Of a stretch of DNA of 64,000 bases, positions 16,099-29,881 are shown in pieces. A model generated the notes under the pieces. That model made no database searches. It was not told where the DNA came from and saw only the letters and a list, made by a program, of their open reading frames with translations. This DNA is from Acidobacteriota bacterium (lineage in GTDB: Bacteria > Acidobacteriota > Holophagae > Acanthopleuribacterales > Acanthopleuribacteraceae): assembly GCA_020439745.1 (NCBI GenBank), contig JAGQSC010000021.1:186001-250000 (forward strand). The letters run 5' to 3'. The translations under genes were made by a program, and so were the position numbers. Positions within the stretch are counted from its first letter, which is position 1, and the number at the start of each line of letters is the position of its first letter.

Positions 16099-16599
16099 AT
16101 GCGTTCTTTGGTGTTGCTCTTCTTGGGTTGGACCTGTTGGGCTCAGACGCCCAAGGCCAGCGAAGCGGTCATTCGGTCGTGGCCAGAGATGATCGAAGTC
16201 GACGGCCAGATGGAACTGGGACGCATTGCCTATGTCTTCGACTATGTCAATGGCGTCGCAGTGGAACGCCATTTTGGAGCAGATGGTGAATTGGTGCGTC
16301 AGATCGATCGCCCCAATTTGGAAATTGGTGCCTCGGACGCAGAGATCGAGATGGCTCAGGAGATGGTGAGGCAAGACCCTGAACTTGCCCGGTTCTTGGC
16401 CACCGAAGGCCGCGTGCTTGATGGCGGGTTCATCTTACGTGAATCCGATCCGGCGCCTTGTGGCACCGGTTCCCGGTGTATTCATATCGTGGCATTTGAT
16501 GTGGATGCCACGCATCCCGTGTTCCACGCCGTGGTAGATCTAGTGAGCGGAGACGTGATTTATCGAAACTACACAAGAACCCGGAGGATCCAGCCATGA
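16099..16599 (+). CDS. Secreted protein resembling a copper amine oxidase N-domain
   Basis: A 166-residue protein with a signal peptide (MRSLVLLFLGWTCWAQ). The C-terminal 100 residues follow the pattern of the small N2/N3 domains that precede the catalytic domain in copper amine oxidases: ASDAEIEMAQEMVRQDPEL, then a core strand and a closing VFHAVVDLVSGDVIYRNY, which echoes the usual 'VDL.TG.V' end. Two Cys flank a short loop (PCGTGSRC). The stop overlaps the next start as ATGA. The next protein resembles the missing catalytic domain, so the two look like a split enzyme. Similarity is by eye and modest; a PepSY-like fold is the alternative. Confidence 0.6.
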   Translation: MRSLVLLFLGWTCWAQTPKASEAVIRSWPEMIEVDGQMELGRIAYVFDYVNGVAVERHFGADGELVRQIDRPNLEIGASDAEIEMAQEMVRQDPELARFLATEGRVLDGGFILRESDPAPCGTGSRCIHIVAFDVDATHPVFHAVVDLVSGDVIYRNYTRTRRIQP

Positions 16600-17750
16600 A
16601 GACCTTCATACCAATCGCGTGTTTTTCCTGGATTTCGTGGGCTCAGTGTCCCGCGGGAGCTCTTCATGTCACGTTTCCAGATGTGGACCCGGTGTGGGAG
16701 TTTTGCGTGTTGCGACCATCAGATTCCAGCGGCCCAAGCGGATCAGGTGTAGAGATTCGCGATGCATATTATCGCGGTATTCTCGTATTCAAGCGGGCCC
16801 ATGCGCCTATTTTGAATGTCGATTACGATCCAGGTGGATGTGGCTGCTTTCGAGACTGGTCCAACTCCGAACGGTCGTTTGCCATGGACAACCCGTTAGC
16901 TACGCCCGGTTTTTATGAACCGACCTCCAACGCGGAAACCGTGTGTGACAACGCCAATAGCCTCACCACGCCGCCCGGTGACTGCCCTTGGAAGGTAGGG
17001 CAGGAGTGTCACACAGGTGTCGCCATCGAAAAATCGGCGGAACGAATTCTGATTACGTCGCAAATGCAAGCTGGCTGGTATCGCTACACCATGCGCTGGG
17101 AGTTCTACGTGGATGGGACCATCCGACCCACTTTTGGGTTTGGCGTTTACAATACGTCGTGTTCCAGTGCCAGTCATAGGCATCACAACTATTGGCGATT
17201 CGATTTTGATATCGACGATGCCGGCAACGATTTTGTCCAAGAAGTTGAAGGCGGCGTGCCCAATGTGTTCGCCAATGAAGTGACACGTACCTGGACAGGA
17301 GCGTCCACAGCCTGGGAGGTGTACGACGCTTCAAGTGGACGCGGTTACAGGATCACCCCTGGTTCAGGCGATTTGGACTTGCCTGCCGATGCCTTCTCCA
17401 AATTGGACTTCATGGCTTCTTTGTACAAGGCTGGTGAGTTATCTGATTCTGGAGGTGGTTGCGCCATCAATGAAGGCACCATCGCCAATGGAGAATCGAT
17501 CACCAACACCGATGTAGTGTTGTGGTATCGAGCTGGGGTCCATGATGTGGTCGGTAGCAATATCTTCAAATGCAAGGCGGGTGGACCCATCTTGGAACCC
17601 ATCGGCGATTGGAACATGTGTGGCCCCGATCCAGGCAACCTCTACCCGAAATGGCATAGCGCCGATATCGATTACGACTACAACACCAACGGGGTGGTGG
17701 ACGTCGCAGACTATGCCAGCCTCGTCAATAACGACTGCATTGGACCGTGA
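16596..17750 (+). CDS. Secreted copper amine oxidase-like catalytic domain with dockerin-like tail
   Basis: A 384-residue exported protein (leader to about residue 17). RWEFYVDGTI, HRHHNYWRFDFDID and VVLWYRAGVHDV align by eye with the copper amine oxidase core. The three copper ligands appear kept as His194, His196 and His316. The cofactor site NYD/EY reads WYRY (161-164): Tyr162 is present but the flanking Asn and acidic residue are Trp and Arg. The usual catalytic-base Asp region (around 83-95) is not clearly kept. Eleven Cys suggest disulphides. Residues 358-381 (YDYNTNGVVDVADYASL) resemble one dockerin-type EF-hand repeat. It may be a divergent or inactive oxidase; coupled to the N-domain protein upstream. 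Confidence 0.65.
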   Translation: MKTFIPIACFSWISWAQCPAGALHVTFPDVDPVWEFCVLRPSDSSGPSGSGVEIRDAYYRGILVFKRAHAPILNVDYDPGGCGCFRDWSNSERSFAMDNPLATPGFYEPTSNAETVCDNANSLTTPPGDCPWKVGQECHTGVAIEKSAERILITSQMQAGWYRYTMRWEFYVDGTIRPTFGFGVYNTSCSSASHRHHNYWRFDFDIDDAGNDFVQEVEGGVPNVFANEVTRTWTGASTAWEVYDASSGRGYRITPGSGDLDLPADAFSKLDFMASLYKAGELSDSGGGCAINEGTIANGESITNTDVVLWYRAGVHDVVGSNIFKCKAGGPILEPIGDWNMCGPDPGNLYPKWHSADIDYDYNTNGVVDVADYASLVNNDCIGP

Positions 17751-27727: not shown

Positions 27728-29176
27728 TCACAAAGAACGGATCGTCACGAGGGCAACTGGACCGCGCCAGTCGAATTCACTGGCCGCTAGATCCCCGATT
27801 CCTTGAACACCATTGGCGAAGAACACATAGCCTTCCGCACCAGTTTGGTTGCGCTGGCCCACGCTACCGCAAGGCGCTCCCGGAACGCTCAGGCAAGATT
27901 CGTCGTTGGCTTCACTACCTGCGTCGTAGGCCCAGGCAAAATCTTGAACGGAGCTGCTTAGTTTGCCGAGGAAATTGTCCGTAGCAACAAGCTGTACCGC
28001 AAAGAAAGTGTCGTTGGTGGATGTGAGCATGCCTGCGACTGAGATCTGCGAAAACCCGTTGCGAGTATATATCGTCGCAGTTTCCGTGGTGCCCGGGCGT
28101 ATCGGATTGGCAAATTGCATGACATCAAAGACTTTGTCCGAGCCTTGAATGCTCTCGGCTAGCACAGACACATCGCCATCTTCAGCAAGAGCGGCTAGAC
28201 CCGGTGATGCGGGTTGTCCAAGTGTAAACAAAGCAATACTTTTGCTGTGAGAAACAATGGCGGGTGGAGAGAAAACTTGGCCGCGAGTGAGGTTGGTCAC
28301 GGACACTTCGTAAGCGCGCCCCTCTTTTTGAGGCGGTAATAGGACTTTATCAATGACGTGAATGACACCATTCGTGGCGAGTATGTCCGTGGCGGTTACC
28401 TGCGCATCGTTCACAAACACACCGCCGCTCAGGGTTACAGCCAACGTGTTGCCTTCAAGCGTGGAAATTCTGTTGGAAGAGACTACGTCAGCGGCCAGTT
28501 GGCGCCCTGGCACCACATGGTAAAGAAGTATCTGAGTGAGGGCTGCGGGGTCATTGATCAGTGCCTCAAGGGTTCCGTCCGGTAATTGCGCAAATGCTTG
28601 GTCCGAAGGTGCGAAGACGGTGAAGGGTCCGCCTTCAGCAAGGGTGTCAACGAGGTCGGCCGCTTGGACGGCAGCAACGAGTGTTTGAAAAGTCTGAGCC
28701 TGAATGGCAGTCTCTACCAGGTTTAACGATGGCGGTAGCATAACCGTGTCGATCACGTGAATGATGCCGTTGGTTGTCACGATGTCTGTTGCCACAATCG
28801 AGGCGCCAGCAATGGTGACTTGGCCGCCATTGACCTCAATGAGTGCGACCTGCTCGTTGAGCACGTTGAGGTATGGGCGCGCAATCACATCTGTGGCAGT
28901 CAGCGCTTCATCTGTCACGTGAAACAAGAGGATGTTTCTGAGTGCTTCTGGATCATTGAGCAGGGCAGATATGGTCCCCGGCGGGAGTTTGTCGAACGCT
29001 GCGTCAGTGGGTGCAAAGACCGTGAACGGTCCATCCGACCTCAGCGCATCTTCGAGTCCTGCAGCTTGGACAGCGGCTACGAGTGTGTTGAATGAACCCG
29101 CGTCAACGGCGGTATCCACAATGTCTTGGGCGTACGTGGGAATTGCTAATAGCGTGATGACAAGCAACTTTTTCAT
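27728..29176 (-). CDS. Secreted protein with two fasciclin domains and a spondin_N-like domain
   Basis: A 482-residue exported protein; ATG 29176 has GGAG upstream and a signal peptide (MKKLLVITLLAIPTYAQ). Two FAS1 repeats follow (about 18-148 and 149-285), each with the [22 protein letters not shown] core and a [18 protein letters not shown] end. The C-terminal 190 residues (YEVSVTNLTRGQVFSPP, GSEANDESC) match the spondin_N fold. These are adhesion-type domains, so a surface or matrix role is likely. It is the second gene of an operon with a shorter fasciclin gene; a hairpin lies between them. Confidence 0.9.
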   Translation of the reverse strand: MKKLLVITLLAIPTYAQDIVDTAVDAGSFNTLVAAVQAAGLEDALRSDGPFTVFAPTDAAFDKLPPGTISALLNDPEALRNILLFHVTDEALTATDVIARPYLNVLNEQVALIEVNGGQVTIAGASIVATDIVTTNGIIHVIDTVMLPPSLNLVETAIQAQTFQTLVAAVQAADLVDTLAEGGPFTVFAPSDQAFAQLPDGTLEALINDPAALTQILLYHVVPGRQLAADVVSSNRISTLEGNTLAVTLSGGVFVNDAQVTATDILATNGVIHVIDKVLLPPQKEGRAYEVSVTNLTRGQVFSPPAIVSHSKSIALFTLGQPASPGLAALAEDGDVSVLAESIQGSDKVFDVMQFANPIRPGTTETATIYTRNGFSQISVAGMLTSTNDTFFAVQLVATDNFLGKLSSSVQDFAWAYDAGSEANDESCLSVPGAPCGSVGQRNQTGAEGYVFFANGVQGIGDLAASEFDWRGPVALVTIRSL

Positions 29177-29210
29177 TTTTGTTCTCCTATTTTCTTGTTC
29201 GCTAGAAAGT

Positions 29211-29234
29211 GCAGCGGCGCGTGTGCGCCGCTGC
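29211..29234 (-). terminator. Intercistronic hairpin between the two fasciclin genes
   Basis: GCAGCGGCGC and GCGCCGCTGC form a perfect 10-bp stem with a GTGT loop. The minus-strand tail is ACTTTC, so it may act as a leaky terminator or mRNA-stability hairpin that sets the ratio of the two proteins. Confidence 0.6.
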
Positions 29235-29243
29235 TTGGTGGGC

Positions 29244-29708
29244 TCACCGGGGGAGGATGACTTTGTCGATGACGTGAATGACACCGTTGCGGCACATGAT
29301 GTCGGTCTTGATCACGCTGGCGTCATTCACCTTGACGCCGTTGTCACTCGAGATGGTTATGTTTTGGCCTTGCACGGTCGTTGCTTGGCTTAATGTGACA
29401 ACCTGTTCAGCGGTCACTTTGCCTGCCACCACGTGGTAGGTAAGCACTTTTGTCAATGCGTCCCGATCCGCCAGCAGGGCATTCAGTTGTTCTTGAGGGA
29501 TTTGTGCGAACGCTTCATCGGTGGGCGCGAACACTGTGAAGGGCCCATCACCTTTCAGGGTGTCGACCAATCCGGCAGCCTTGATGGCGGTTACTAGGGT
29601 TTCGAATTGACCAGCTGATATTGCGGTATCCACAAGATCCTTGGTGAGCGGTGCTTTGGTGCCGCCCACGAGTGGGCCGAGTGCGATGAGGGCGAGAATG
29701 TTAATCAT
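29244..29708 (-). CDS. Secreted single-domain fasciclin protein
   Basis: A 154-residue exported protein; GGAG is seven bases before ATG 29708. After a hydrophobic leader ([16 protein letters not shown]) comes one FAS1 domain with [33 protein letters not shown] and the closing [14 protein letters not shown]. It resembles the second FAS1 repeat of the downstream gene, which suggests duplication. Such small FAS1 proteins are thought to act in adhesion. The upstream AT-rich region (29709-29881) is shared with a divergent SRPBCC gene. Confidence 0.9.
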
Positions 29709-29881
29709 GAAGAGACTCCTATTTGTGAAAAGTTCCGGATTAGATATCCGTGTCTGTGTGGTTATTCGATAATGTCTAGATAAAGTTTCAAAAAAAGTTG
29801 GAAAAAATATGGACAAAAATTTCCACGAACCCTATTTTGGAAGGGCCGATGGTATTTTTGTGACCTGAAAGGAGTGCCCAT

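Follow-up and report, generated by a model that had tools for sequence, protein, structure and literature searches.

A compact relative of copper amine oxidase encoded as two overlapping genes for separately exported proteins, with a conserved but altered active site

In textbooks, copper amine oxidases (CuAOs) are homodimers of single chains, and their active site is invariant. Quinohemoprotein amine dehydrogenase, with CTQ and a diheme cytochrome c, is another exported amine-oxidising system, in which the quinone subunit delivers electrons to c-type haem. For the comparison below, we rely on the correspondence of individual active-site positions between ECAO and AGAO, which we take to be established knowledge. 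The known CuAO active-site residues were taken from two sources (PMC3382800, PMC9491219). In the known CuAOs the topaquinone (TPQ) consensus T-x-x-N-Y-D/E and all three His ligands are strictly conserved, and in model CuAOs the Asn and the ligands matter; TPQ formation by HPAO Asn404Ala still reaches 5-10% (PMC3382800). The Asn beside topaquinone restricts quinone rotation in CuAO (PMC9491219).

In the window, the whole stretch of 64,000 nucleotides analysed herein, which belongs to a 5.1-Mb genome (G000), we identified two genes that almost certainly encode the N-terminal (N2-N3) and the catalytic domains of a compact CuAO relative as separately exported proteins from overlapping, co-inherited genes. 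The pair and its key residues are as follows.

16099..16599, + strand: gene 1, encoding a secreted subunit of 166 aa that corresponds to the N2-N3 (cystatin-like) domains of CuAO (AlphaFold, Foldseek, hhalign)
16596..16599, + strand: ATGA shared by the stop of gene 1 and the start of gene 2; 4-base overlap likewise in L003, L004, L006 and L012
16596..17750, + strand: gene 2, secreted 384-aa protein comprising the catalytic domain of CuAO (D4-like beta-sandwich) and a C-terminal tail (PF01179, AlphaFold, Foldseek, hhalign)
16824..16826, + strand: Tyr77, equal to ECAO Tyr369/AGAO Tyr284 (hydrogen bond to quinone O4), invariant
16854..16856, + strand: Asp87 of CFRDW, invariant throughout the compact clade, alternative base candidate
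16863..16865, + strand: Asn90, which the alignment places at the catalytic base (ECAO Asp383/AGAO Asp298)
17076..17087, + strand: Trp161-Tyr162-Arg163-Tyr164, in place of Asn-TPQ-Asp/Glu-Tyr; Trp161, Tyr162 and Tyr164 invariant in the family
17175..17183, + strand: His194-Arg195-His196, equal to copper ligands ECAO His524 and His526 (AGAO His431 and His433)
17541..17546, + strand: His316-Asp317, with Asp317 at the third copper ligand position (ECAO His689/AGAO His592) and His316 one residue before
17625..17747, + strand: C-terminal tail (residues 344-384), modelled with low confidence and bearing a single dockerin-like EF-hand

The first-pass annotation of this DNA had proposed two genes overlapping through ATGA, each with its own signal peptide, and both the ORFs and the N-terminal signals agree with it: the two products carry hydrophobic signals that end in ...WAQ, an ending also found on the signals of further secreted proteins of the window. 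Thus, in place of the single chain that joins N-domain and catalytic domain in CuAO, two ORFs with separate signals are present. Genes for SDR and DoxX lie upstream on the same strand and a TonB receptor gene lies downstream on the opposite strand, and the DoxX and TonB neighbours recur at L003. Elsewhere in the window (27728-29816, - strand), two neighbouring ORFs of 190 and 518 aa appear by eye to encode secreted fasciclin-domain proteins. No relative of the pair was found on viral contigs, and a phage or viral origin was rejected on this ground.

The reading of the second protein as a CuAO catalytic domain is well supported by its profile search, which gave a significant match to Pfam PF01179 (E 7.2e-7, 28.9 bits, above the cut-off of 27), a match also given by 20 of the 26 family members; the match to the NCBIfam primary-amine oxidase model (E 3e-6) stays far under the cut-off of that model. 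The AlphaFold model of gene 2 (pLDDT 83.8, pTM 0.83) is of low confidence only at residues 1-10 and beyond 343, and the best 50 PDB hits listed by Foldseek are all CuAOs (top E 5.4e-14). By hhalign, gene 2 matched the canonical catalytic domains with E 1.3e-14. On the CuAO structures the model superimposes with an rmsd of 8-14 A and query TM-scores of about 0.5-0.56, which indicates that gene 2 is a divergent, shortened version of CuAO and which makes the model unfit for atomic geometry. A chance match to PF01179 is ruled out by the AlphaFold model, Foldseek, profile comparison and the relatives described below. No canonical CuAO was found elsewhere in the genome by a PF01179 whole-genome search, a search that is insensitive to remote members since it missed the window's own gene 2.

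Gene 1 had been assigned to the CuAO N-domain from the outset, an assignment borne out by structure and profile-profile comparison, not by the Pfam N2/N3 sequence profiles: sequence searches gave no significant match in Pfam (N2/N3 included), NCBIfam or PDB. Its AlphaFold model (pLDDT 90.1) found only CuAOs in the first eight rows of the Foldseek search and nothing else of significance, the best match being AGAO (E 1.9e-5, probability 1.00, about 160 columns), followed by ECAO and a Hansenula enzyme. The hhalign E-value was 1.4e-5 with canonical N-terminal halves (0.71 with the catalytic domain as control) and 1.7e-7 with the N-terminal halves of fused relatives. Alignment of 26 homologs indicated Cys121, Arg126, Cys127, Val146 and Asp147 as invariant, and in Xanthomonadales gene 1 often begins, as read by eye, with a lipobox-like signal (for instance, LAAC, LGGC or LPGC). 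Since gene 2 matches the catalytic profile and fold of CuAO and gene 1 matches its N-domains, the pair is taken as a split CuAO.

A search for the same gene pair in related genomes, using one genome per species, yielded 19 loci, or 20 together with the window. In all 26 pairs from these 20 loci (Xanthomonadales often carry two tandem pairs, hence the larger number of pairs), a gene 1 homolog immediately precedes gene 2, the distance between the two genes ranging from -4 to +62 bases. The hosts are Acidobacteriota, Rhodothermota, Myxococcota and Xanthomonadales, including cultured strains such as Pseudofulvimonas gallinarii DSM 21944 and Dokdonella immobilis CGMCC 1.7659, and the closest named relative of gene 2 is from 'Holophagae bacterium' OFTM365 (70% identical). 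Inter-protein distances of gene 1 and gene 2 are highly correlated (Mantel r 0.915; as high in none of 2000 permutations). Among 396 Acidobacteriota genomes we found three further split loci of the WYxY type (L035, L036 and L044). Seven other loci, L037-L043, encode single-chain forms, and L045-L047 hold split pairs of an NYNY type, the upstream gene of which matches CuAO N-domains by profile (E 5.4e-6). Two more single-chain forms came from plasmid records, one of Variovorax (WP_162487223.1) and the other of Nonomuraea. In the fused forms, of about 520-590 aa, a single ORF holds the two parts, ordered as in the split pair, which supports the assembly of the split products. Two side observations concern these relatives: L046 and L047 each carry two consecutive catalytic ORFs, and on Variovorax sp. 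WDL1 plasmid 3 (L024, 4341-8122) the fused WYRY protein gene adjoins that of a galactose oxidase-like protein, a member of the copper radical oxidase family.

Fold, profile and recurrence thus agree with the original proposal of one CuAO divided into two secreted parts. It had also been stated that no split form was described, and we likewise found none in the literature searched, in which subscription journals are thinly covered. Such proteins, where annotation was seen, are labelled hypothetical; the pair represents a real branch of the CuAO family for which we found no description.

The key residues of gene 2 were aligned with those of seven canonical CuAOs; the alignment is ungapped around each key residue, the base excepted, and hhalign agrees with it. 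Five residues are retained, i.e., Tyr77, the quinone precursor Tyr162, Tyr164 (AGAO Tyr384), His194 and His196, while three of the eight CuAO active-site residues are exchanged (in AGAO numbering, Asn381 to Trp161, the base Asp298 to Asn90, and His592 to Asp317). In place of the T-x-x-N-Y-D/E consensus, gene 2 carries Q-A-G-W-Y-R, the Tyr being kept at the topaquinone position as the first-pass annotation had it. As to the metal site, the three candidate ligands named earlier were His194, His196 and His316; the first two stand, and the third was rejected by the alignment, in which TDAVVWMTTGTT[H689] of ECAO is aligned without gap with TDVVLWYRAGVH[D317], in agreement with hhalign, so that Asp317 takes the place of the third His. 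The base region, initially reported as not clear, gives Asn90 at the base position. This position is occupied by Asp in most split relatives, by Asn in the window and by Tyr, Phe, Asn or Trp in others; Asp87 is a candidate for the alternative base because it is invariant and located three residues before Asn90.

Alteration of the WYRY motif was correctly noticed at the start, but it is no private oddity of this protein, as W-Y-x-Y is common to split and fused relatives: none of the WYxY-type split proteins and none of the nine fused relatives tabulated departs from it. As judged from these alignments, WYRY is a conserved family signature and not a sign of decay. In the tabulated full-length WYxY split proteins, HxH, Tyr77, Trp161, Tyr162, Tyr164 and Asp87 are all invariant, and the third ligand position of split forms is either His or Asp only. 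In a fused subclade (L040, L041 and L043), Arg replaces the first and the third ligand, by which the metal site was probably lost, and WYRY is still kept, indicating that conservation of Tyr162 alone is no proof of a quinone. These three are likely to be natural metal-free pseudoenzymes of the CuAO fold.

A maximum-likelihood tree was constructed for 45 catalytic domains after removal of the third-ligand column, with canonical CuAOs as the outgroup. All 18 of the Asp317 proteins form one clade (support 98/97), so the His-to-Asp change took place once on this tree, and His is present in the sisters of the Asp clade and in most fused forms. The fused forms make a single clade (99/97) nested among the split WYxY forms, and may have arisen by re-fusion; the NYNY split forms branch outside the WYxY clade, the deep splits being provisional because of long branches flagged by the tree program. 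The two-gene form raises the question of whether the CuAO family was ancestrally encoded by two genes, on which the root, set here by choice, has a bearing.

The single C-terminal dockerin-like EF-hand reported at first is indeed present in gene 2. At least four further large ORFs of the genome (G000:C2:350081, G000:C2:391269, G000:C35:17308 and G000:C63:70726; E <= 0.0033) bear similar tails of about 40 aa. As it is shared across large ORFs, the tail looks like a lineage-specific tag, possibly for surface attachment or export. A cellulosomal dockerin was rejected, as there is a single EF-hand-like motif and no dockerin Pfam match. The relatives carry TSP3 repeats or, by eye, apparent T9SS-type sorting tails.

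A gene for pentaheme cytochrome c adjoins the pair in 10 of 12 Asp-type loci (L004, L010-L012 and L015-L020), a count that is phylogenetically non-independent since the Asp-type loci make one clade. The cytochromes, such as L018:1367-3286:+ and L004:5305-7320:-, contain five CxxCH motifs and are mostly of about 640-660 aa; that of L017, cut by the locus end, was identified by homology. They fall into two subfamilies of about 25% identity (L004 and L011 versus the rest), which favours a functional link over one inherited neighbourhood. Those His-type split, fused and NYNY-type loci that were checked showed no adjacent cytochrome, some of the His-type contigs being short. The window and L003 carry no cytochrome gene beside the pair; in both genomes a homolog is located away from it (for the window, on another contig at G000:C27:231050-232714, 54% identical to that of L004). 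Genome G003 has a cytochrome homolog, and gene 2 was not found there.

For the function of the pair, we tentatively prefer a remodelled metal-tyrosine redox site to a classical oxidase, being aware that the whole chain of steps could well prove otherwise. After export, the products of gene 1 and gene 2 would assemble into a heteromer equal to one CuAO subunit, which would probably dimerise in the CuAO manner. The active site would be remodelled rather than dead: the two-His half of the metal site is kept and Asp317 would complete a 2-His-1-Asp site, the putative quinone precursor Tyr162 would stay with its neighbours Tyr77 and Tyr164, and Trp161 would stand where CuAO has the topaquinone-steering Asn. 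The pair would then probably carry out a metal-dependent redox reaction of the tyrosyl or quinone kind, acting on an amine-like substrate outside the cell and depending less on O2 than the classical oxidase does, with the pentaheme cytochrome, adjoining in Asp-type relatives and encoded elsewhere in the window's genome, as the candidate electron acceptor. The following observations count against this reading: three of eight active-site residues are changed, including the Asn and a ligand of the kinds known to matter; L040, L041 and L043 lost two ligands with WYRY kept; the cytochrome is apart from the pair in the window and L003 and has a homolog in G003, where gene 2 was not found; and its adjacency in the Asp-type loci is phylogenetically non-independent.

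Rather less probable, though still to be taken seriously, is a pseudoenzyme, in which the split CuAO scaffold serves as a secreted or surface binding protein, without quinone cofactor or turnover, for sensing of amine, metal or glycan or for adhesion. The exchange of the Asn, the base Asp and the third His in the window protein is in agreement with such a role, as are the fused subclade that swapped two metal ligands for Arg with the rest of the fold kept, and the attachment-like tails that vary by lineage (EF-hand, TSP3 or T9SS-like). Across four phyla, however, the split forms show no variation in the two His, the precursor Tyr, Tyr77 or Tyr164, and only His or Asp, both of them metal ligands, occupies the third position, indicating a constraint beyond the need of a dead site.

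A specific proposal, that the Asp-type split proteins are amine dehydrogenases, is in our judgement unlikely: a catalytic subunit, together with an N-domain subunit that serves as the anchor (in Xanthomonadales a lipoprotein, to judge from its lipobox), would use, instead of the three-His copper site, a 2-His-1-Asp metal site and a tyrosine-derived cofactor to pass electrons to the pentaheme cytochrome and not to O2. Nothing relevant on cytochrome-coupled CuAO was found in the literature searched.

We consider quite improbable a classical TPQ-type CuAO that tolerates the substitutions, with Cu on two His and Asp, Tyr162 converted to topaquinone, Asp87 as the base and O2 as the acceptor. The retention of the TPQ-precursor Tyr, Tyr77, Tyr164 and HxH, the invariant Asp87 near the base position and the residual TPQ formation by HPAO Asn404Ala (PMC3382800) agree with it, but the T-x-x-N-Y-D/E motif and the third His, which known CuAOs conserve strictly (PMC3382800), are both missing and the bulky Trp161 occupies the site of the Asn that limits quinone rotation (PMC9491219). 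An artefact, in which a single CuAO gene was split by frameshift or assembly error, is rejected as hardly conceivable: the ATGA overlap at the junction might mimic a frameshift, but both parts carry separate signal peptides and the arrangement recurs in the 26 pairs, cultured strains included, the two genes in some cases lying tens of bases apart or the pair being repeated in tandem.

Among the systems compared, quinohemoprotein amine dehydrogenase is a works-like analogy only, its fold and cofactor being unrelated, and the cytochrome link of the split proteins is one of gene neighbourhood only, seen outside the window itself. The NYNY-type split pairs (L045-L047, from other Acidobacteriota) share a separate upstream N-domain gene with the catalytic domain downstream, but their N-Y-N-Y motif is near-canonical and all three of their ligands are His. 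The compact single-chain WYRY proteins (L037-L043, Variovorax WP_162487223.1 and Nonomuraea) share W-Y-R-Y, the His-rich ligand motif, both domains and an FRDW/YRDW motif (FRDD in Nonomuraea), but differ in being one polypeptide, in the third ligand His (Arg in L040, L041 and L043) and in that no adjoining multiheme cytochrome was found. The two-gene form, the His-to-Asp and Asn-to-Trp switches, and the sisters that keep or lose ligands together provide a natural mutational series for the requirements of topaquinone formation, and may also hint at amine oxidation coupled to a cytochrome at the surface of bacteria. With ECAO (TynA) and AGAO, the window pair shares the catalytic fold, HxH, the quinone-precursor Tyr, the equivalent of Tyr369/Tyr284, the N-domain fold and the domain order; it differs from them in being two genes of about 550 aa in total instead of one gene of 640-757 aa, in having Trp161 for Asn, Arg163 for Asp/Glu, Asn90 at the base position and Asp317 at that of the third ligand, and in the C-terminal EF-hand-like tail on gene 2.
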